From Deltaproteobacteria bacterium (GTDB lineage Bacteria > Desulfobacterota > Binatia > UBA9968 > JAJDTQ01), in NCBI GenBank assembly GCA_028818775.1, contig JAPPNE010000173.1:1-42216 (forward strand): a DNA stretch of 42,216 nucleotides, in the 5' to 3' direction. Positions 12,461 to 23,272 of the stretch are shown piece after piece. Numbering within the stretch: the first letter of the stretch is position 1; the number at the start of each line of letters is the position of its first letter. A program made the position numbers and the translations under genes. The notes below the pieces were generated by a model, which saw nothing but the letters and a program-made list of their open reading frames with translations, did no database searches and was not told the DNA's origin.

Positions 12461-12533
12461 GTTTCTCAGGATGAACGGTTGCTGGCTTAACACGGCCCGT
12501 GAACCTTTGCCAGCCGTTGTTTCCGTTCGTCCT
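12461..12533. repeat. Degenerate copy of the CCTGAG/GTCGAAGG repeat in the pyrE/hydrolase divergent region
   Basis: CTCAGGATGAACGGTTGC (12465-12482) matches the left arm of the 29518-29609 element with one difference. CCGTTCGTCCT (12523-12533) matches the start of the right arm. The two can still pair (AGGATGAACGG with CCGTTCGTCCT, one G-T). The outer halves of the element are lost. This could be a decayed insertion that now lies in a promoter region. Confidence 0.45.
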
Positions 12534-12546
12534 TTCCTGTTACGAT
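12517..12546 (+). promoter_or_regulatory. Weak promoter candidate for the M20 amidohydrolase gene
   Basis: TTGTTT at 12517-12522 and TACGAT at 12541-12546 are 18 bases apart. The -10 box is preceded by TGT, giving an extended -10 pattern. The ATG is 30 bases further on. The -35 match is poor. Confidence 0.35.
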
Positions 12547-12575
12547 TTCCCCTCTTCCGACCGTCGGGCAGGCAC

Positions 12576-13835
12576 ATGGAAGTTCCCCAAATCAACAAGG
12601 ACAGGCTTTTGCGCGACCTGAACGCGGTGTCGCGCATCGGCCTGGGCGAGGGCGGTTCGGTCACGCGGCTGGTTTTCTCGGTGCACGAGCTCCGCTCGCG
12701 CCAGTTGCTGGTTCACCTGATGAACCAGGCGGGGCTCGACGTGCGCGTGGATGCGGCGGGGAACATCTTCGGACGGTTTGCGAGTACGCGGGAGGGACCG
12801 GCGGTGCTGGCCGGGTCGCATCTGGATTCCGTCGTGCAGGGCGGGAGGTACGACGGCCCGGTGGGCGTCATCGGCGCGCTCGAAGCGGTGCGCGCCATCA
12901 AGGAGAGCGGCGTGCCGGTGCCGGCGCCGCTGGAGAGCGTGTGCTTCGTGGGCGAGGAGTCCAGCCGTTTCGGGTTCTCGACCCTGGGGAGCAGCCTGGT
13001 GGCCGGAGACGTCACCATGGACGACTTCGCCAACGCGGTGGACGCGGGCGGCAACCGGCTGGAAGACGTGCTTTCGAGCCTGGGCATCTACCGCGAGAAC
13101 CTCGACTCGCTGAAACGCGACCCCGAGACCGTCAAGGCGTACCTCGAGCTTCACATCGAGCAGGGTCCCGTCCTCGAATCGAAGAAGAAGAAGATCGGCG
13201 TGGTCACGGCCATCGCCGCGCCGAGCCGGTTCCGGGTGGTGTTCCGCGGCCAGGCGGACCACAGCGGCACCACCCCCATGGAGATGCGCAAGGACGCGCT
13301 GGTGGCGGCGGGGCACCTGATCACCTACATCGACGAGGTGTGCCGCGAGCACGCGGCGACGGAGAAGGGCCGGGTGGTTGGGACGGTGGGCGCCGTCAAG
13401 GTAGAGCCCGGCGTGATCAACGCCATCCCGGGGCGGGCCGAGATGCAGGTGGACGTGCGCAGCATCACCTCCGGCTCCAAGCGCAAGGTGGCCGGGCTGA
13501 TCAAGAAGCGGGCGCGGCGGATCGCCCGGGAGCGCGGCGTGAAGGTGGACCTCGTGACCATCCGGGAGGAGGAGCCGGTGGCGATGCATCCGGGCGTGAT
13601 CGCGCTCATCCACGCGCTGTGCGAGGAACGCGGCGTCCCCTTCGAGGTGATGCCGTCGGGCGCGGGCCACGACGCCATGCAGATGGCCAAGATCACCCCC
13701 ACGGGCATGATCTTCATCCCCAGCGTGAACGGCGTGAGCCACAACCCCACGGAATGGACCGACCCCGAGGATATCTGTCTCGGGACACAGCTTCTGGTGG
13801 AGGCGCTGCTGCGGGCCGCCCATGCGGAAATCTAA
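12576..13835 (+). CDS. M20-family amidohydrolase (N-carbamoyl-L-amino acid hydrolase / allantoate amidohydrolase type)
   Basis: The 419-residue zinc enzyme keeps the family's metal ligands: GSHLDSV (His82, Asp84), GGRYDGPVGV (Asp93), FVGEESSRFG (Glu127, Glu128), HIEQGP and VNGVSHNPTEW near the C-terminus. The dimerisation lid lies between, with DHSGTTPM. The family cleaves the carbamoyl group from N-carbamoyl amino acids, beta-ureidopropionate or allantoate, releasing ammonia and CO2 or urea-type products. It overlaps the pyrR-like gene by 14 bases. Its position between pyrE and pyrR and before an ABC importer suggests ureide or pyrimidine-derived substrates, but that is inference. The upstream in-frame extension to 12471 would overlap the promoter region and is not family-like. 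Confidence 0.87.
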   Translation: MEVPQINKDRLLRDLNAVSRIGLGEGGSVTRLVFSVHELRSRQLLVHLMNQAGLDVRVDAAGNIFGRFASTREGPAVLAGSHLDSVVQGGRYDGPVGVIGALEAVRAIKESGVPVPAPLESVCFVGEESSRFGFSTLGSSLVAGDVTMDDFANAVDAGGNRLEDVLSSLGIYRENLDSLKRDPETVKAYLELHIEQGPVLESKKKKIGVVTAIAAPSRFRVVFRGQADHSGTTPMEMRKDALVAAGHLITYIDEVCREHAATEKGRVVGTVGAVKVEPGVINAIPGRAEMQVDVRSITSGSKRKVAGLIKKRARRIARERGVKVDLVTIREEEPVAMHPGVIALIHALCEERGVPFEVMPSGAGHDAMQMAKITPTGMIFIPSVNGVSHNPTEWTDPEDICLGTQLLVEALLRAAHAEI

Positions 13836-14367
13836 GCCGAAGAAGACCCCGCGGGTGCTCAGCGCGGCGCAGATCGCGCGGATTCTCGGGGGTTTCGCCA
13901 AGCGCATCGCCGACGAATACGGCGCGGCCGCCTCTCTGGCGTTCATCGGCATCCGCACGCGCGGGCCGACGCTGGCGCGGCGGGTGGCGGACGTGCTGAA
14001 GCAGAAGCACGACCTGCCGGTGGCCGTGGGCGAGCTGGACATCACGCTCTACCGCGACGACCTGAACACGCTCTTGCCGGAAGGGCGCATCGACGCCACC
14101 CATATTCCCTTCGAGGTGAACGACAAAACGCTGATCCTGTTCGACGACGTGCTCCATACCGGGCGCACGGCGCGCGCCGCCGTGGACCACCTCATGGCCC
14201 TGGGGCGGCCCAAGGCCATCTTCCTGGCGGTGCTGGTAGATCGGGGCGGGCGCGAGCTACCCATCGAGGCCCGGCTCGTCGGCAAGCAGGTGGACCTGCG
14301 GAGGGGCGGAGACGTGCGCGTGCGGCTGGCGGAGGTGGACGAGGTGGACGAGGTGGTGGTGGCGTGA
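13822..14367 (+). CDS. pyrR: PyrR-type phosphoribosyltransferase / pyrimidine regulator
   Basis: The 181-residue protein matches PyrR: VLSAAQIARILGGFAKRI at the N-terminus, IGIRTRGPTLARRVAD, the conserved GELDITLYRDDL, and the PRPP motif LILFDDVLHTGRTARAA. PyrR proteins bind pyr mRNA to cause attenuation and often have uracil phosphoribosyltransferase activity. Here the gene overlaps an amidohydrolase gene by 14 bases and is followed by an ABC operon, not by pyrB and pyrC as is usual. A salvage role, making UMP from uracil, is therefore as plausible as regulation. The N-terminal eight residues are Lys-rich. Confidence 0.88.
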   Translation: MRKSKPKKTPRVLSAAQIARILGGFAKRIADEYGAAASLAFIGIRTRGPTLARRVADVLKQKHDLPVAVGELDITLYRDDLNTLLPEGRIDATHIPFEVNDKTLILFDDVLHTGRTARAAVDHLMALGRPKAIFLAVLVDRGGRELPIEARLVGKQVDLRRGGDVRVRLAEVDEVDEVVVA

Positions 14368-14495: not shown

Positions 14496-15323
14496 ATGAG
14501 CAAGACACAAGAGATACCCCTCGAAGAAACCGACGATTCGTTCGCGGCGTCGGTGAAAGCCATCTACAACCGCCATCGCATCGGGATCAACTTCTGCCTG
14601 TCCGTGGTCCTGGCGCTGTTGACCTGGGAGTTCATCGACTTCATCTTCAACGACCCCGACTTCTTCACCGGCCCCGTCGCGGTGGCGGTCGAATTCACCG
14701 TGCTGATCTACGAGCCCCGCTTCTGGGAGCACGTGAGCTACAGCAGCACGGAACTGGTCTACGGCTTCGCCTTGGCCACGTTTCTCGGGGTGGTCATCGG
14801 CGCGGGCGTGGCCTTCAGCCGGACCCTGGACGAGATGTTCTCCCCCATCCTGGTGGGCCTCTACGCGACCCCGCGCTCGGTGGCAGCGCCGCTCTTCATC
14901 ATCTGGCTGGGGTTGGGCATCGCCTCCAAGGTCGGGGTCATCACCCTGGCCTCGGTCTTTCCGGTGATCATCAACACCCAGGCCGGCATCAAGAACGTCC
15001 AGGGCGAGTTCCGCATGCTGGGCCGGGCCTTCAACATCTCGTTCTGGGCGATGCTGACCAAGATCATCGTGCCGGGATCGATGCCGTTCCTGATCGCGGG
15101 GCTGCGGCTGGGCTACTCCCGGTCGGTGGTGACCATCATGGTGGCCGAGCTGTTCGGCGCCGAAGCCGGCATCGGCTACATGATCGACCACGCGACGCAG
15201 ACGTTCCACGTGGCGGAGATGATGGTGGGCATTTCGCTCCTGACCATCATGGGCATCGCCGGCAACGAAGCGCTGAAATTCGTCGAACGCTGGGCCACGC
15301 CCTACCGAAAGACCCTGGTGTAG
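14496..15323 (+). CDS. ABC transporter permease, SsuC/TauC type (1)
   Basis: The 275-residue inner-membrane protein has about six helices and the BPD_transp_1 (MetI-like) fold. The EAA-type coupling loop is around FRMLGRAFNISFWAMLTKIIVPGSMPFLIAGLRLGYSRS. A hydrophilic N-terminus of about 35 residues precedes the first helix. It should form the channel for substrates delivered by the four binding proteins downstream, together with the second permease. No strong Shine-Dalgarno precedes the ATG. Two different permease genes suggest a heterodimeric channel, whereas many SsuC/TauC systems use a homodimer. Confidence 0.9.
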   Translation: MSKTQEIPLEETDDSFAASVKAIYNRHRIGINFCLSVVLALLTWEFIDFIFNDPDFFTGPVAVAVEFTVLIYEPRFWEHVSYSSTELVYGFALATFLGVVIGAGVAFSRTLDEMFSPILVGLYATPRSVAAPLFIIWLGLGIASKVGVITLASVFPVIINTQAGIKNVQGEFRMLGRAFNISFWAMLTKIIVPGSMPFLIAGLRLGYSRSVVTIMVAELFGAEAGIGYMIDHATQTFHVAEMMVGISLLTIMGIAGNEALKFVERWATPYRKTLV

Positions 15324-15347
15324 GTCGAGAGCGCCGGAAGAAAAACC

Positions 15348-16133
15348 ATGGAACTCTTGTCAAGTCTGTATCAGCAACAACGCAGGTGGCTGAACGCCGT
15401 CTTCGGCTTCGGCGTCGTTGCGGCGTTCTGGCAGTTCGCCGACTGGCAGGTCGGCAGCGAGCTGTTCTTCGTGGGTCCGTGGCGGGTCGTCACCTACACA
15501 TACGGCCTGTTCGCCAGCGGCGAGATCCTCGATGACCTCCAGATCAGCGGCATCGAGTTCTTCTGGGGCTACGCCGTGGCAGCGGCCGCCGGCATCGGCT
15601 TCGGCATGGTGTTCGGCGTGAGTCGGGTGTTCCGGGAGTTCTTCGATCCCTGGCTGAGCGCCATCTACGCCACGCCGTCCGTGGCCCTGGCCCCGCTCAT
15701 CATCATCTGGTTCGGCGTGGACCTCACGGCCAAGATCGTCATCGTCCTGATCACCGCGGTGGTCCCCATCGTCCTGAACACCTACACGGGGGTCCTGAGC
15801 GTCGGCAAGGAGTTCCAGACCCTGGCCAACTCGTTCTGCGTTCCCCAACGTCAGATCCTCTACAAGATCCTCATTCCGGGCTCGCTTCCCTACATCGTTA
15901 CAGGATTACGCCTCGGCATATCTCGCGGGATCGTGGGCGTCGTCGTCGGGGAATATTTCGGCGCCTACGCTGGGCTCGGCTATCAGTTGTTCAAGGGACT
16001 CGATACCTTCAACATGCCGCTCATGATGTCGTGCGCGGCCATGCTTGCCGGCACCGGCGTGATCTTCAACCAGGTCATCCTCATTATCGAGCGCCGGATG
16101 GCGCCGTGGCGTGATACCCAACTACAGGAGTAG
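15348..16133 (+). CDS. ABC transporter permease, SsuC/TauC type (2)
   Basis: This 261-residue protein is homologous to the previous one and has the same six-helix layout. Its coupling loop reads EFQTLANSFCVPQRQILYKILIPGSLPYIVTGLRLGISRG. Shared helix motifs include LSAIYATPSVALAPLIIIWFG, which compares with LVGLYATPRSVAAPLFIIWLG in the first permease. It starts 24 bases after permease 1, and the ATPase starts 3 bases after it. It is probably the second half of a heterodimeric channel in the inner membrane. Confidence 0.9.
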   Translation: MELLSSLYQQQRRWLNAVFGFGVVAAFWQFADWQVGSELFFVGPWRVVTYTYGLFASGEILDDLQISGIEFFWGYAVAAAAGIGFGMVFGVSRVFREFFDPWLSAIYATPSVALAPLIIIWFGVDLTAKIVIVLITAVVPIVLNTYTGVLSVGKEFQTLANSFCVPQRQILYKILIPGSLPYIVTGLRLGISRGIVGVVVGEYFGAYAGLGYQLFKGLDTFNMPLMMSCAAMLAGTGVIFNQVILIIERRMAPWRDTQLQE

Positions 16134-16136
16134 TCC

Positions 16137-16928
16137 GTGTCGTCATCCATTCAGGTAGAGCAAGTCCACAAGACTTTCATGAAACCCACCGGGGAGACCG
16201 TCCATGCCGTGGGCGGCATCGACATGGATCTCCGGCCGGGGACGTTCTATTCGTTCGTGGGGCCCAGCGGATGCGGCAAGACGACCATGCTGCACATGAT
16301 CCACGGGCTGCTGCCGCCTACCAGGGGCCGCATACTGCTGGACGGCACGGAGGTCACGGGCCCCACGCCCAACAAGGCGGTGGTGTTTCAGCAGGCGCTC
16401 CTGCTGCCCTGGCGCAACGTCACCGACAACATCAAGTTCGGTCTCGAGAACGACAGCACCAAGAGCACCACGGAGAGGATGGAGATCTGTGACAAGTACA
16501 CGCAGATCGTGGGGTTGCGGGGCTTCGAGAGCCACTATCCGCACGAGCTTTCCGGCGGCATGCAACAGCGGGTGAACCTCGCCCGGGCGCTGGCGGTGAA
16601 CCCCGAAATTCTCCTGATGGATGAGCCCTTCGCATCGCTGGACGCACAGACCCGCCTGCTCATGCAGGAGGAGCTCCAGCGCATGGTGGATTGGAAGAAC
16701 TCCGGGAAGATCGTGATTTTCGTCACCCACGATATCGAGGAAGCCGTCTTCCTTTCCGACATCGTATTCTGCTTCAGCTTCCGCCCCGGGACCATCATGA
16801 AGGAGATCAAGGTTCCCTTCCCGACCCCTCGCACGCTGCGCGTCAAGGAGGAGCCCGAGTTCCTGCAGATCAAGCACGACATCTGGGAGCTGCTTGCGGA
16901 CGAGGCCCGCAAGGCCATGGAGGAATAG
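16137..16928 (+). CDS. ABC transporter ATP-binding protein, SsuB/TauB type
   Basis: The 263-residue ATPase has Walker A GPSGCGKTT at 42-50, the Q-loop VVFQQALLLPWRN, signature LSGGMQQRVNLARAL, Walker B ILLMDEPFASLD and the switch His in VIFVTHDIEEAVF. The LLPWRN and SDIVFCFSFRPGTI elements are typical of the nitrate/sulfonate/taurine importer class. The start is GTG, three bases after the permease stop, preceded by CAGGAG. It energises uptake through the two permeases. Confidence 0.94.
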   Translation: MSSSIQVEQVHKTFMKPTGETVHAVGGIDMDLRPGTFYSFVGPSGCGKTTMLHMIHGLLPPTRGRILLDGTEVTGPTPNKAVVFQQALLLPWRNVTDNIKFGLENDSTKSTTERMEICDKYTQIVGLRGFESHYPHELSGGMQQRVNLARALAVNPEILLMDEPFASLDAQTRLLMQEELQRMVDWKNSGKIVIFVTHDIEEAVFLSDIVFCFSFRPGTIMKEIKVPFPTPRTLRVKEEPEFLQIKHDIWELLADEARKAMEE

Positions 16929-17031: not shown

Positions 17032-18054
17032 ATGAAACAGAAACGCATCGCAAGAGGAATCGCCGCGGCCTTGCTGGGGGCAAGCCTGCTGTGCGCCGGC
17101 CACGCGCTGGCCCTGGAGAAGCTCCGCATCCCGGTGGCGCTTCCCAGCTCGACGACCGCGCTGGTGGAGCAGGTAGCCATCTACAAGGGCTGGTTCAAGG
17201 AGATCGGCTACGACGCCGTAGTCTACTCGGTATCGGGCGGCGAGAACGCCGCCGTGCTGGCCCTGGAACGGGGACAGCTCCCCTTCTTCGGCTCGGACGA
17301 CGTCGTTCCCCTGGCCATTCGTCCCAACAGCAACATCCGCGTCGTCGGCACCCTGATGAACACGCTGCCCTACTGGCTCGTGGGGGGCCAGCACGTCAAG
17401 TCCTTCAAGGATCTGCCAAGGCCCGTGAAGGTGGGCATCAGCTCTCCCACCTCGGGCAACGTCTACGTGTCGCTCAAGCTGCTCGAGACCGCCGGCATCA
17501 CGAGAAAGGACGTGCGCCTGGTGAAGGTCGGCGGCTCGTCGGCGCGCCTGGCGGGAGTCAAGGCCGGCAAGATCGACGTGGGCTCGCTGACCTTCGGCAT
17601 GATGCTGCGGGCCAGGGAGGCGAACCTGACGATCCTCGGCGCCGCCAACCAGTTCGTCAAGGAATTTGCCTTCACGCAGCTCGGCATGAACAAGGATTAC
17701 ATCAAGAACAATCCGGACAAGGCCACGGCTATTTTCGGCACCCTGATACGCGGGTGCGCCTACGTGAACGACCCCGCGAACCGTGAAGAGGTGCTGCACG
17801 TCTACGAAAAGGTCATGCGCAACAAGGCGAACCTCGCCAAGCAGATGTACGATATCGAGATCGCTCAGAACAAGCACGTCCCGGACCGTTGCCAAGCCAC
17901 TGAAGCAGGCATCCAGGCGTTCCTGGATTCGGCATTCTGGACCAAGTCCTTGCCGGCGGATACCAAGGTGCCGCCCATGAACGACATCCTGCTGCCCGAG
18001 TTCTACGAGAAGGCTCTGGCCTGGTACAACAACAAGGGCTGGATGAAGAATTAG
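17032..18054 (+). CDS. ABC transporter substrate-binding protein, NMT1/TauA-like, paralogue 1
   Basis: The 340-residue periplasmic protein has a Sec signal peptide with likely cleavage after Ala27 (GHALA). The two-lobe type II binding fold follows. The motifs VSGGENAAVLALERGQLPFF and VGISSPTSGNVYVSLKLLE are identical in all four tandem copies. The mature chain has just two cysteines, Cys242 (RGCAY) and Cys287 (DRCQA), conserved in all four, so a structural disulfide is likely. RBS GGAGGGAAG precedes the ATG. It is closest to paralogue 2, sharing the binding-site segment DDVVPL and the helix GWFKEIGYDA. The NMT1/TauA class covers sulfonates, nitrate, pyrimidine precursors and others, so the ligand is unknown. 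Confidence 0.92.
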   Translation: MKQKRIARGIAAALLGASLLCAGHALALEKLRIPVALPSSTTALVEQVAIYKGWFKEIGYDAVVYSVSGGENAAVLALERGQLPFFGSDDVVPLAIRPNSNIRVVGTLMNTLPYWLVGGQHVKSFKDLPRPVKVGISSPTSGNVYVSLKLLETAGITRKDVRLVKVGGSSARLAGVKAGKIDVGSLTFGMMLRAREANLTILGAANQFVKEFAFTQLGMNKDYIKNNPDKATAIFGTLIRGCAYVNDPANREEVLHVYEKVMRNKANLAKQMYDIEIAQNKHVPDRCQATEAGIQAFLDSAFWTKSLPADTKVPPMNDILLPEFYEKALAWYNNKGWMKN

Positions 18055-18069
18055 CGAAGGAGGAAGGCC

Positions 18070-19092
18070 ATGAGAATTCAACGTATCGCGACAACCCTCG
18101 TCGTCGCCGTGCTGGGCGCCGGCCTTCTTTTTTGCGGCCAGGTCCTGGCCCTGGAGAAGCTCCGCATCCCGGTGGCGTCCCCCAACTCGAGCACCGCGCT
18201 GGTGCAGCAGGTAGGCATCTACAAGGGGTGGTTCAAGGAGATCGGCTACGACGCCGCGGTCTACTCGGTGTCGGGTGGTGAGAACGCCGCCGTGCTGGCC
18301 CTGGAACGGGGTCAGCTCCCCTTCTTCAGCTCGGACGACGTCGTTCCCTTGGTCATTCGTCCCGGCAGCAACATCCGGGTCGTCGGCACCCTGATGAACA
18401 CGCTGCCCTACTGGCTGGTGGGCGGCAAACACGTCAAAACCTACAAGGACCTGCCGCGGCCCGTGAAAGTGGGCATCAGCTCGCCCACCTCGGGCAACGT
18501 CTACGTGTCCCTCAAGCTGCTCGAGACCGCGGGCATCGACAGGAAGGACGTGCGCCTGGTGAAGGTGGGCGGGTCGTCGGCGCGTCTCGCGGGCGTCAAG
18601 GCGGGCAAGATCGACGTGGGCTCGCTGACCTTCGGCAACATGCTGCGCGCCAGGGAAGCGAACCTGACGATCCTTGGCGCCGCCAACCAGTTCGTGAAGG
18701 AATACGCCTTCACGCAACTGGGCATGAACAAGAACTACATCAAGGACAATCCGGAAAAGGCCACGGCCATGTTCGGCACCCTCGTCCGCGGGTGTGCGTA
18801 CATCAACGACCCCGCGAACAGGGAAGAGGTGATGCACGTCCTCACGAAGGTCATGCGCAACAAGCCGAACCTGGCCAAGGAGATGTACGAGATCGAGGTG
18901 GTCCAGAGCAAGCACATCCCGGACCGCTGCCAGGCCACCGAAGCGGGCATCAAGGCATTCCTCGATTCGGCCTTCTGGACCAAGTCCATCGCGGCGGACA
19001 CCAAGGTTCCGCCCATCGACCAGATCCTGTTCCCCGAGTTCTACGAGAAGGGGCTTGCCTGGTACAACGACAAGGGCTGGATGAAAAAGTAG
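18070..19092 (+). CDS. ABC transporter substrate-binding protein, NMT1/TauA-like, paralogue 2
   Basis: The 340-residue tandem copy starts 15 bases after paralogue 1, with RBS GAAGGAGGAAGG. The signal peptide ends near QVLA. It shares DDVVPL, GWFKEIGYDA and the ending FYEKGLAWYNDKGWMKK with copy 1. It keeps both conserved cysteines (RGCAY and DRCQA). Local changes from copy 1 lie in the ligand-lobe region (SSDDVVPLVIRPGS against GSDDVVPLAIRPNS), hinting at a shifted specificity or affinity. No frameshift or decay is visible, so both copies appear functional. Confidence 0.92.
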   Translation: MRIQRIATTLVVAVLGAGLLFCGQVLALEKLRIPVASPNSSTALVQQVGIYKGWFKEIGYDAAVYSVSGGENAAVLALERGQLPFFSSDDVVPLVIRPGSNIRVVGTLMNTLPYWLVGGKHVKTYKDLPRPVKVGISSPTSGNVYVSLKLLETAGIDRKDVRLVKVGGSSARLAGVKAGKIDVGSLTFGNMLRAREANLTILGAANQFVKEYAFTQLGMNKNYIKDNPEKATAMFGTLVRGCAYINDPANREEVMHVLTKVMRNKPNLAKEMYEIEVVQSKHIPDRCQATEAGIKAFLDSAFWTKSIAADTKVPPIDQILFPEFYEKGLAWYNDKGWMKK

Positions 19093-19108
19093 CGAAGGAG
19101 GACTACTC

Positions 19109-20128
19109 ATGAAATCCAAGCACATTGCAAAAGGAATCGCCGCGGTTTTTCTGGGAGCCAGCCTGTTGTGGGGTGGCCCGGTGCTCGCACAGGAGGATCT
19201 CCGCATCCCGGTTGCGATGACCAGCACCACCACCGCGCTGACGGAGCAGGTGGCGATTTACAAGGGTTTCTTCAAAGACATCGGCTACAACGCCAGGGTC
19301 TACTCGGTATCGGGTGGTGAGAACGCCGCCGTCCTCGCCCTGGAACGGGGCCAGCTCCCCTTCTTCGGCTCGGACGACAACATCCCCCTGGCTATTCGAC
19401 CCGGCAGCAACATCCGCGTCATCGGCAGCGAGATGAACGTGTTGCCGTACTGGCTCGTGGCCGGGAAACACGTCAAGTCCTACAAGGACCTGAAGCGGCC
19501 GGTGAAGGTCGGCATCAGCTCTCCCACCTCGGGCAACGTCTACGTGTCCCTCAAGCTGCTCGAGGCGGCCGGCATCCCGCAAAAGGACACCCGGCTGGTC
19601 AAGGTCGGCGGATCGTCGGCGCGGCTGGCGGGCGTCAAGGGCGGCAAGATCGACGTGGGCTCGCTGACTTTCGGCATGATGCTGCGGGCCAAGAAGGCGG
19701 ATCTGTCGATCCTTGGCGCGGCGAACCAGTTCGTCAAGGAATACGCGTTCCTTCAGGTTGCCATGAACAAGAACTACATCAAGGACCAACCGGACAAGGC
19801 CGAGGCCATGTTCGGAACCCTCATCCGTGGGTGTGCGTTCGTCAACGACCCCGCGAACAAGGAAGAGGTGATGCACGTCCTCACGAAGGTCATGCGCAAC
19901 CCCCCGGACATCGCCAAGGAGATGTACGAGATCGAGGTGGCCGGTGGGTCCATCCCCGACCGATGCCAGGCTACCGAGGCGGGCATCAAGGCCTTCATCG
20001 AATCGGCCGTCTGGAGCAAGTCCATCCCGGCGGACACCAAGATTCCGCCGTCCAGGGACATCATGTTCCCCGAGTTCTATGACCGGGCTCTGGCTTGGTA
20101 CAACAACAAGGGCTGGATGAAGAAGTAG
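19109..20128 (+). CDS. ABC transporter substrate-binding protein, NMT1/TauA-like, paralogue 3
   Basis: The 339-residue tandem copy follows paralogue 2 after 16 bases, with RBS GAAGGAGGA. Its signal peptide ends in PVLA. It belongs to a second sub-pair with copy 4: GFFKDIGY and the binding-site segment DDNIPL replace GWFKEIGY and DDVVPL. Both conserved cysteines are present. One residue is missing near AGGSIPDRC relative to the others. A hairpin terminator follows the stop codon, so it probably ends the main operon transcript. Confidence 0.92.
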   Translation: MKSKHIAKGIAAVFLGASLLWGGPVLAQEDLRIPVAMTSTTTALTEQVAIYKGFFKDIGYNARVYSVSGGENAAVLALERGQLPFFGSDDNIPLAIRPGSNIRVIGSEMNVLPYWLVAGKHVKSYKDLKRPVKVGISSPTSGNVYVSLKLLEAAGIPQKDTRLVKVGGSSARLAGVKGGKIDVGSLTFGMMLRAKKADLSILGAANQFVKEYAFLQVAMNKNYIKDQPDKAEAMFGTLIRGCAFVNDPANKEEVMHVLTKVMRNPPDIAKEMYEIEVAGGSIPDRCQATEAGIKAFIESAVWSKSIPADTKIPPSRDIMFPEFYDRALAWYNNKGWMKK

Positions 20129-20158
20129 GATAAAAGGTCAGAGAATAGCTGTTGCAAA

Positions 20159-20208
20159 GAGGGGGATCCCTCTGATGCGTCCCACGACATCGGAAGGTCC
20201 CCCTTTTT
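20159..20208 (+). terminator. Rho-independent terminator after binding-protein paralogue 3
   Basis: The outer stem GGGGGA/TCCCCC (20161-20166 with 20198-20203) and the inner pairing GATG/CATC (20174-20177 with 20188-20191) are followed by TTTTT at 20204-20208. It resembles the hairpin after paralogue 4, so the gene and terminator were probably duplicated together. Confidence 0.7.
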
Positions 20209-20254
20209 GCCTTCATAGGTATGAGAACGGCCGTTAGCAAAAAGGAGAAAACAC

Positions 20255-21277
20255 ATGAGGGCCAAGAGCATTGCAAAGGGAATCACCGCAGCCTTGCTGG
20301 GAGCAAGCCTGCTCTGGAGCGGGCAGACGCTCGCGATGGAGAAGCTCCTGATCCCGGTCGCCCAGACCACCGCCACCACGTCGCTGGTGGAGCAGGTGGC
20401 CATCCACAAGGGTTTCTTCAAGGACATCGGCTACGACGCGAGGGTTTACTCGGTGTCGGGCGGTGAGAATGCCGCGGTCCTCGCGCTGGAGCGGGGTCAA
20501 CTCCCCTTCTTCGGGTCGGACGACAACATCGCGCTGGCCATCCGGCCGGGCAGCAACATCCGCATCGTCGGCACCGAGTTGAACACCCTGCCCTACTGGC
20601 TGGTGGGCGGCAAGAACGTCAAGTCCTACAAGGATCTGCCGCGGCCGGTGAAAGTGGGCATCAGCTCGCCGACGTCCGGCAACGTCTACGTCTCCCTTAA
20701 GCTGCTGGAGAACGCGGGCATCCCGGCAAAGGACGTGCGTCTGGTCAAGGTCGGTGGATCGACCGCGCGTCTGGCGGGGGTCAAGGCCGGCAAGATCGAC
20801 GTAGGCTCGCTCACCTTCGGGAAGATGCTGGCTGCTCGGGACGCGGGATTGACCGTTCTCGGCGCCGCGGAACAGTTCGTCAAGGAATACGCGTTCCTGC
20901 AGCTCGCCATGAACAAGAACTTCATCAAGGACAACCCCAAGAAGGCCACCGCGCTGTTCGGTACGCTCATTCGTGGATGCGCCTTCGTCAACGACCCGGC
21001 GAACGCCGAAGAGGTGCTGCATGTCTACGAGAAGGTGATGCGCAACAAGCCGCACATCGCCAAGAAGATGTACGAGATCGAGATCATGGAAGCCAAGTCC
21101 GTCCCCGATCGCTGCCAGGCAACCCCGGGCGGCATCGAAGCGTACATCGAGTCCGCGTTCTGGACCAAGTCCATCGCCAAGGACACCAAAGTCCCGCCGG
21201 TCGACCAGATCATGTTCCAGGAGTTCTACGACAAGGCCCTGGCTTGGTATAACAACAAGGGCTGGATGAAGAACTAG
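20255..21277 (+). CDS. ABC transporter substrate-binding protein, NMT1/TauA-like, paralogue 4
   Basis: The 340-residue copy is separated from paralogue 3 by 126 bases containing a terminator. It may depend on readthrough or its own promoter; none is obvious. RBS AAAGGAGAA is clear. The signal peptide ends in QTLA. It pairs with copy 3 (GFFKDIGYDA, DDNIALAIRPGS) and keeps the two cysteines (RGCAF and DRCQA). It differs from the others at ATPGGIEAYIESAF near the C-terminus. It could therefore be expressed at a lower level or under other conditions than copies 1-3. Confidence 0.92.
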   Translation: MRAKSIAKGITAALLGASLLWSGQTLAMEKLLIPVAQTTATTSLVEQVAIHKGFFKDIGYDARVYSVSGGENAAVLALERGQLPFFGSDDNIALAIRPGSNIRIVGTELNTLPYWLVGGKNVKSYKDLPRPVKVGISSPTSGNVYVSLKLLENAGIPAKDVRLVKVGGSTARLAGVKAGKIDVGSLTFGKMLAARDAGLTVLGAAEQFVKEYAFLQLAMNKNFIKDNPKKATALFGTLIRGCAFVNDPANAEEVLHVYEKVMRNKPHIAKKMYEIEIMEAKSVPDRCQATPGGIEAYIESAFWTKSIAKDTKVPPVDQIMFQEFYDKALAWYNNKGWMKN

Positions 21278-21309
21278 AACCGGCGGCTCACGCCGTCACC
21301 AAACACGAG

Positions 21310-21356
21310 GAAGGGACCCTTTCGATGTCGCCGGACATCGGGAGGGTCCCTTCTTC
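21310..21356 (+). terminator. Strong hairpin terminator after binding-protein paralogue 4
   Basis: GAAGGGACCCT (21310-21320) pairs perfectly with AGGGTCCCTTC (21343-21353), and CGATGTC (21323-21329) with GACATCG (21334-21340), around the loop GCCG and a TT/GG internal loop. The run after the stem is TTC then G, so the T-tract is poor, but the stem is very stable and lies between convergent genes. Confidence 0.65.
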
Positions 21357-21367
21357 GTTCGTACGAT

Positions 21368-21396: not shown

Positions 21397-22593
21397 TCAG
21401 GCGACCAGTTGTAGCGCAGCCGCCGCATAGATCCGCGCCGCCCGGCGCACTTGTTCCAGCGGCACCACCTCGGCGTCGGTGTGGGCGAAGGCCAGGTCGC
21501 CCGGACCGAACATGACCGTCTCGATACCTTTCTCGTTCAAGTAGCCCGCGTCGAGGGCAGCCGGGAAGTAAAGGGGCGGTCCGGCCTCACCTGCCTGCCC
21601 GCGCGCCGCCTCCAGTCCCACCGCCACCTCGCTGCTGGCCGGCACATCCGTGGGATACATGAAGTTTCCCTGGGTCACCTCCACATGCCAAGGCTCCATG
21701 TCCACCAGCGCTCGCGAGATGGCGGCCAACGCCTCCCCGGGCTCCTCGCCCGGCATGAGCCGCCGGTCCAGCGTCAGCCGGCAATGGTCCTGGATGGTGT
21801 GGAGGATGTCGGGACCGCTCTCGATGTGAGTGGCCACCAGGCTCGCCGGACCCAACTCCGGATGGGCGATGCCGTCCACCAGCCCGTCCAGCCGCTCCAG
21901 CACGGCGCGCGCGCCGTCCACCGCGTTGACACCCGCCCACGGCGTGCTGCTGTGGCAGGACTTGCCGCGCACCACCACGTCCACGTCGATGCGGCCCTTG
22001 TTGCCCAGACAGACCCGGTTGGTGGTGCCCAGCCCGACGATGCCGTAACGAGCCGCGAGCCCATCCTCCTCCAGCATGTACCGGGCCGCGTCGTGCCGCC
22101 CGGTCTCCCCGGCGAGGCTCACGGCCAGCGCCAGCGGCCGCGCCAGCTCCAGTCCCGACCGGCACACCGCGGCGGCACCCGCCATCATGGCGGCCAGGGC
22201 GGCCTTTTGCTCACACCCGCCGCGGCCCCAGAGGCACGGCCCTTCCAGTCCGTAGTCCTCGCCCGGAACGATCTTCGCCGAGAACGGCTCGGGCATCGAC
22301 CCCGCCGGGAAGGTCATGGCGTAGCCCATGAAGAGCAGCCCTTCCGCCGCATCGGAACCCGCGCCGCCATACCGCCACAGCAGATTGCCCATGCCGTCGG
22401 TCCGTGGCGCCACGCCGGTGAGCCCTTCGAGCCTGGGCGCCACCACCTCGGCGGCAAACGCCTTCACCGCAGGGTCCGCCTCCATGAGATCGGTGTGCAC
22501 CGACGGCACACGGAGCAAATCGCCGAACAGCGCGTCCAACTCCGAATCGTCGACGTGCGCGCCGGCAATACGAAAGGCCTCCCGTGGTTCCAT
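21397..22593 (-). CDS. M20 peptidase/deacetylase-fold protein with altered metal-site residues
   Basis: The 398-residue protein aligns through the M20 fold (ArgE/DapE/CPG2 group). It retains CHSSTPWAGVNA (His214) in the lid and a C-terminal FAHTDAEV (His371). Key ligand positions differ: the usual GHxD motif reads GYAM (Tyr91, Met93), the GRGxxDMKG motif reads GRGGCEQKAA (Glu128 for Asp), and the catalytic DEExG motif reads AGETG (Gly162 at the general-base Glu). At least two metal or catalytic residues are therefore lost. It may be a pseudo-enzyme, bind a different metal, or act by another mechanism. The start MEPREAFRIAG was chosen because the longer frame has no family similarity. A DUF1989 gene lies 25 bases upstream on the same strand. 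Confidence 0.85.
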   Translation of the reverse strand: MEPREAFRIAGAHVDDSELDALFGDLLRVPSVHTDLMEADPAVKAFAAEVVAPRLEGLTGVAPRTDGMGNLLWRYGGAGSDAAEGLLFMGYAMTFPAGSMPEPFSAKIVPGEDYGLEGPCLWGRGGCEQKAALAAMMAGAAAVCRSGLELARPLALAVSLAGETGRHDAARYMLEEDGLAARYGIVGLGTTNRVCLGNKGRIDVDVVVRGKSCHSSTPWAGVNAVDGARAVLERLDGLVDGIAHPELGPASLVATHIESGPDILHTIQDHCRLTLDRRLMPGEEPGEALAAISRALVDMEPWHVEVTQGNFMYPTDVPASSEVAVGLEAARGQAGEAGPPLYFPAALDAGYLNEKGIETVMFGPGDLAFAHTDAEVVPLEQVRRAARIYAAAALQLVA

Positions 22594-22618
22594 GTTCTGT
22601 GGTCTCCCGGCCCGGTCC

Positions 22619-23272
22619 CTACTCGTTCCTCGCCTCGAATACCTCCACCCGGATCGCCTGCCCCCGGCCCGATTCCGGACAGGCGCTGACCGCCACCAGG
22701 CAGTCCATCTCCGCGCGGAAGTCCACGTGCGCCTCGTCCTTGGGGCGCACGAAGGTATCGAAGATGGCCCCCGTGTCCGGGTCGAAGCGCATGGTCTGGA
22801 AGATGTTGAACGGGCTCGGGATATCCACCGGGGCAATGTCCCACGGACGCACCGCCTCGGACAGGTTCTCGTAACACCCGTGGGTGGGGATGTCCTCGGG
22901 GCGCTTGGGATTGGGGTCCACCCCCTCGATGAAGTTCCGCTGAGCCAGTCCCGCCGCCACCAGCTCGAAACGCTTGCGGCTGCACATGCCCTTCTGCAGG
23001 TCGTGCCGCCCTTCCTCGAACGTGTCCGCCACGATGGTCAGCAGCGGGTTGTTGAGCTTGGACAAGAGCTGGTCGCCCGTACTGATAAAGAGCTTGGCCT
23101 GATTGGTCTTGGTGCGGGCCTGGTCGAAACGTTCCGTCAGGTCATGCAGGTTGAAGGCCACGAAATCCACCACCGACCGCCCCGCCACCCGCAAACACTG
23201 CCCCTTCTTCACCGTAAAGGCGCACCCCGAGTTCTTCGGTACGGTCACGCTGCTGAGCAGTTTGTTCGACAT
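22619..23272 (-). CDS. DUF1989 family protein (urea-carboxylase-associated / carboxyguanidine deiminase-like), paralogue 2
   Basis: The 217-residue protein is homologous over its length to the protein at 11059-11691. It has GRHDLQKGMCS against GTHDLQKGMCS, HGCYENLSEAV against HGCWENLSGAL, and DIPSPFNIFQ against DVPSPFNLFQ. The His, Asp and Cys of the family are kept. In guanidine users, two DUF1989 subunits are encoded side by side and form a heteromeric deiminase; here the two genes are 11 kb apart on opposite strands. The M20-like gene follows it 25 bases on, probably in one transcript. It is divergent from the di-iron/ETF cluster. Confidence 0.82.
   Translation of the reverse strand: MSNKLLSSVTVPKNSGCAFTVKKGQCLRVAGRSVVDFVAFNLHDLTERFDQARTKTNQAKLFISTGDQLLSKLNNPLLTIVADTFEEGRHDLQKGMCSRKRFELVAAGLAQRNFIEGVDPNPKRPEDIPTHGCYENLSEAVRPWDIAPVDIPSPFNIFQTMRFDPDTGAIFDTFVRPKDEAHVDFRAEMDCLVAVSACPESGRGQAIRVEVFEARNE

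Follow-up and report, generated by a model that had tools for sequence, protein, structure and literature searches.

Type I ABC importers of the TauABC/SsuABC/NrtABCD group have one substrate-binding protein (SBP) per core of permeases and ATPase. The stretch of DNA analysed here (the window, 42,216 nucleotides) encodes an importer whose SBPs, permeases and ATPase all belong to the families of that group, but with four SBP genes in tandem behind one core. This raises the question of how the four copies arose, why they were kept and what they bind. The window makes up one contig in a draft genome of 4.1 Mb (G000; completeness 97.5%), and most of its relatives that have named records are MAGs of Candidatus Binatia.

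One transporter core and four binding proteins

The core consists of permease 1 (14496..15323, + strand; PF00528 and NCBIfam, TauC/SsuC/SaoP-like), permease 2 (15348..16133, +; PF00528) and an ATPase (16137..16928, +; PF00005 and NCBIfam, TauB/NrtCD-like); the best NCBIfam relatives of the three proteins are Tau, Ssu, Nrt and Sao transporters. Downstream lie SBP1 (17032..18054), SBP2 (18070..19092), SBP3 (19109..20128) and SBP4 (20255..21277), all on the + strand. They are four complete, head-to-tail open reading frames of 339–340 amino acids; none contains an internal stop, their N-termini resemble signal peptides, and each matches the Pfam family NMT1 (PF09084) above its cut-off. Together with the permease and ATPase context, these matches confirm the observation of an earlier note on this DNA, namely that four intact, full-length NMT1-type SBPs follow two permeases and one ATPase; the long identical blocks it described are likewise present in all four. 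SBP1 and SBP2 share 84% of their amino acids and the remaining pairs 76–78%, with SBP4 equally distant from SBP3 and SBP1 (77.9% each). Identity at third codon positions is 62–77%. A genome search for further close copies found none, either for the SBPs or for permease 2, whose best relative beyond the locus is 38% identical. Since a single core lies upstream and the genome holds no second close core or SBP, the four proteins would share this core.

Two hairpins are predicted in the RNA of the array, both on the + strand. The first (20162..20207; −30.4 kcal/mol, z −5.0) occupies the gap between SBP3 and SBP4 and recurs at this position in all eight loci examined. In two relatives (L009 and L011) its sequence diverges strongly with the pairing kept, and 9 of its 19 pairs are doubly changed in at least one of the eight loci. 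It may terminate part of the transcripts or stabilise the mRNA, separating SBP4 from the other genes and staging its expression. A dispersed repeat is ruled out as its origin, the core pattern occurring once in the genome. The second hairpin (21305..21358; −47.8 kcal/mol, z −8.7) ends the array. It resembles the first in sequence, is more stable, carries a T-rich tail in most relatives and is likely an intrinsic terminator. An Rfam scan of the window returned a single tRNA, and neither a riboswitch nor a PyrR element.

Ortholog groups, selection and turnover

The gene order is kept across the genus: an OPRT gene (− strand), an amidohydrolase, PyrR, two permeases, the ATPase, the SBPs and, again on the − strand, an M20-family hydrolase and a DUF1989 protein. 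Looking for the same layout in related genomes, as the earlier note had proposed, recovers the layout but not the copy number: the arrays hold three SBPs in L009, L010, L011 and L012 and two in L013, and four in the window only, among the genomes examined. Both L012 and L013 (contig OY282432, 4.09 Mb) are chromosome-length assemblies. A class-wide search finds the SBP family in the genus and, elsewhere in the order, in three genomes; of 395 genomes sampled across the phylum the source genome alone has it, a search of viral contigs for relatives gave none, and plasmid relatives are 24–27% identical with no useful context. The three genomes outside the genus, which serve as outgroups and belong to two other families of the order, carry a single such SBP each; in the two fully readable loci it precedes the permeases.

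In the protein tree the four SBPs of the window group with copies from other species. SBP1 joins copy 1 of L009 (ortholog group A), SBP2 the first copies of L010, L011 and L012 (group B), SBP3 the group C copies of L010 to L013, and SBP4 the last copy of every array examined (group D). Forcing the four window proteins to be monophyletic is rejected (p-AU 1e-105). At least three duplications, the number that four copies imply, are therefore older than the split of these species; the earlier note had counted at least two. Of its two proposed sub-pairs, SBP1 with SBP2 forms a well-supported clade (94/93), whereas SBP3 with SBP4 does not (72/55). The DDNI motif of SBP3 and SBP4 occurs in the outgroups too, so their sharing it reflects a retained ancestral state.

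Two sources of the identical blocks were considered and ruled out: recent duplication by the rejected monophyly, and gene conversion by the nearest neighbours of individual blocks, which are copies of other species. In blocks of 34 codons the nearest neighbour is almost always the same-group copy of another species, with few exceptions to the group, so that the identical stretches do not stem mainly from conversion within a genome.

The orthologs are under purifying selection (dN/dS 0.09–0.32) and the groups have been retained as separate lineages; dS between the paralogs of the window (0.35–0.74) mostly exceeds that between orthologs (0.16–0.42). Across the relatives the array has lost copies as well as gained them. 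L013 contains a 119-bp SBP stub (L013:9882-10000) ahead of its two remaining copies, made of the first ~19 and last ~13 codons with ~900 bp gone, and the start of the stub is nearest to the SBP2 of L012 (46 of 57 bases). The SBP4 ortholog of L011 (L011:12179-13201) has one in-frame TAG and otherwise low dN/dS; it may be a recent pseudogene or contain a sequencing error. Slot 2 of the L009 array (copy 2, L009:6895-7914) is occupied by a fifth, long-branched and fast-evolving SBP type, ~71–73% identical to SBP1 and SBP2, whose grouping with SBP2 is rejected (p-AU 0.02). The contention that gene decay is not behind the array is upheld by the window with its four intact copies, but fails in these relatives with their stub and stop codon.

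Such turnover is what would be expected if duplication had supplied more receptor and the copies had since been born and lost with little functional difference. The range of two to four copies between close species, the SBP2 remnant in L013, the TAG in L011 and the fast-evolving type in L009 all fit this reading. Against it, groups A to D remain separate across species at low dN/dS, 30 positions are constant within the ortholog groups and different between them, and block by block the nearest relative is hardly ever the other copy in the same genome. We regard dosage followed by drift as improbable.

We further note that two tracts of the window, 15168-16306 (1139 nt) and 19280-19701 (422 nt), are 100% identical to L011:8146-9284 and L011:11211-11632, within flanks that are mostly 82–94% identical; they may stem from recent exchange between species or from a chimeric assembly. 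A chimera could in principle also account for the fourth copy, by fusing a group A copy from one species with a B-C-D array from a second, and this mosaicism would agree with it, as would the finding that A and B are adjacent in this MAG alone. The A-B junction, however, has a tidy intergenic sequence of its own, unlike that before B in the other species, and the identical tracts do not lie at this junction. Every copy is intact, and arrays of two and three copies exist in chromosome-length assemblies (L013 and L012). A chimeric origin is accordingly very improbable.

The ligand pocket and the probable sharing of one core

An AlphaFold2 model (18 rows) reached pLDDT 36 and pTM 0.25 and was set aside as unusable; the pocket was therefore mapped by profile alignment. 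The ligand contacts of E. coli TauA, namely Gln30, Gly61, Gly79, Glu106, Thr132 and Asp205 with Trp176, Leu204, Ser32, Ser60 and Ser131 (PMC6906117), were transferred with hhalign (99.6% probability, 19% identity), as were those of X. citri SsuA (PMC3839906); over a gap in the alignment at the strand-1 loop, residues were assigned manually. Both of the long blocks shared by all four proteins correspond to the main pocket loops, with the equivalents of Gly61 and Thr132.

Among SBP1–4, 102 positions of the mature proteins vary. By chance, 4.6 of them would be expected among the 14 mapped positions, and 5 are observed; padding each site by one gives 28 positions, with 9.2 expected and 7 observed. 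Differences do not cluster at the pocket, and the claim that they gather near the ligand cleft is not borne out. The alignment and mapping on TauA that had been proposed as a check does, on the other hand, reveal pocket sites fixed by ortholog group. At or next to the pocket these are positions 37 (L/S/M/Q in SBP1–4), 38 (P/P/T/T), 190 (M/N/M/K) and 215 (T/T/L/L), the last being the equivalent of TauA Asp205, and the segment 91-93, which reads VVP, VVP, NIP and NIA. Of the sites that vary, 16 lie no more than three residues from the pocket and 8 of these are group-fixed, compared with 22 of 86 elsewhere (one-sided p 0.051, post hoc). As the test was devised after the data had been seen, a tendency of varying pocket sites to be fixed by group is only suggested. 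That single positions can matter is exemplified by Asp205 of TauA, which is Gly in SsuA, a change of the kind that can alter specificity (PMC6906117).

We moderately favour the explanation that one type I core is served by four anciently duplicated SBPs, kept by selection, with tuned preferences for small nitrogen substrates. Tandem duplication before the species of the genus diverged would have produced the four proteins, and selection would then have retained each as an ortholog group of its own. All four would offer the same docking surface to the two permeases and a common pocket anchor, formed by the invariant GGEN, DD and SPTSGN loops. Their ligand preferences or affinities would diverge through a few pocket positions: 37-40 in the loop that follows strand 1, 91-93, 190 and 215. 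The substrates would be small ureide, N-carbamoyl or pyrimidine-type compounds, which the amidohydrolase encoded alongside would cleave in the cytoplasm.

The arrangement as such, several paralogous SBPs beside one core, is known and is well preserved here: the locus has at least two paralogous SBPs next to a single core, in lineages held apart under selection. In E. coli, HisJ and ArgT (70% identical) share HisQMP2 and differ in ligand preference, and ArtJ and ArtI are paralogous SBPs of ArtQMP2, using or thought to use one core (PMC6640053). In both, as here, the paralogous SBP genes stand beside one permease–ATPase core, but there are two SBPs of another family with amino-acid ligands in place of four of the NMT1/SsuA type. 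Up to five paralogous SBPs (AmiA, AliA, AliB, AliC and AliD) serve the Ami permease of S. pneumoniae (PMC11192437); these are peptide-binding lipoproteins of the SBP_bac_5 family with locus tags far apart, whereas the NMT1 proteins of the window form one array. Unusual are the number of SBPs per array, the genus-wide receptor lineages, and the gain and loss of receptors between species.

Synechococcus WH8102 offers a different precedent, with three PstS homologs that bind one ligand, phosphate, at ~10-fold different affinities (PMC10846223). Like the SBPs described here they are several conserved paralogs per lineage, of another family. By analogy, the four SBPs could bind the same ligand and differ in affinity or timing, SBP4 being expressed separately or less behind its hairpin. 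The main pocket loops, identical in all four proteins, also fit a single ligand, and the conserved hairpin parts SBP3 from SBP4 in every locus examined. Residue 37, by contrast, has four group-fixed states, position 190 three (M/N/K) and 215 two, and changes of this kind can alter specificity. A common ligand for all four is possible but somewhat unlikely.

If the receptors do differ in ligand, they constitute a natural series in which specificity changes while the fit to the transporter is kept: few pocket positions separate four lineages of 76–84% identity, and the orthologs in related species serve as replicates.

Candidate substrates

A sulfonate ligand is unlikely, judged from the residues predicted to line the pocket. 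The TauA contacts Gln30, Glu106, Thr132 and Asp205 correspond to A36 with L/S/M/Q37, L112, S141 and T/L215, so that the contacts to the sulfonate and amine groups are lost and the pocket lacks the contact residues of a TauA/SsuA sulfonate binder. An invariant Asp89-Asp90 pair occupies the anion-binding loop, and the SsuA_fam profile gives 22 bits (cut-off 163).

The neighbouring genes point elsewhere. Upstream of the importer and on its strand lie a Zn-dependent amidohydrolase of the hydantoinase/carbamoylase family (12471..13835, +; allantoate or N-carbamoyl amino acid hydrolase type; NF006771 456 bits, cut-off 399, and TIGR01879 above cut-off) and a PyrR-type phosphoribosyltransferase/regulator (13822..14367, +; NF003549 173 bits, cut-off 138), the two genes overlapping by 14 bases. 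The nearest solved chain of the amidohydrolase is 3n5f, an N-carbamoyl-L-amino acid hydrolase (E 2.6e-88). Convergent with the array is the M20-family hydrolase (21397..22608, −; ArgE/DapE/YgeY-like by NCBIfam), a 60% relative of which adjoins the single-SBP transporter of another genome, G118. From the amidohydrolase, PyrR and this M20 relative we tentatively propose, with less than even confidence, that the substrates are ureides, N-carbamoyl compounds or pyrimidine-related compounds. The OPRT gene was considered as a pointer to a pyrimidine, a role weakened by its being the genome's only PyrE: it may be a housekeeping gene and says little on the substrate. A search of the literature on Binatota and sponge transporters and on pyrimidine transport by NMT1 proteins yielded nothing usable.

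One pump probably takes up several related nitrogen compounds through the four receptors; differing ligands would point to scavenging of several such compounds in an uncultured group. More speculative, and rather doubtful, is a genus-wide receptor cassette, in which SBP modules (five ortholog groups, two to four copies) are gained, lost and possibly exchanged downstream of a fixed core, the hairpin insulates the last, always present receptor, and species differ in the nitrogen compounds they scavenge.

Two further observations concern the neighbourhood. The DUF1989 protein (22619-23272) has urea-amidolyase-associated relatives, yet scores 80 bits against a curated cut-off of 285. In genome G116, two tandem OPRT-like genes, 46% and 71% identical to the PyrE of the window, lie beside a single-SBP importer (L040:4063-5515).
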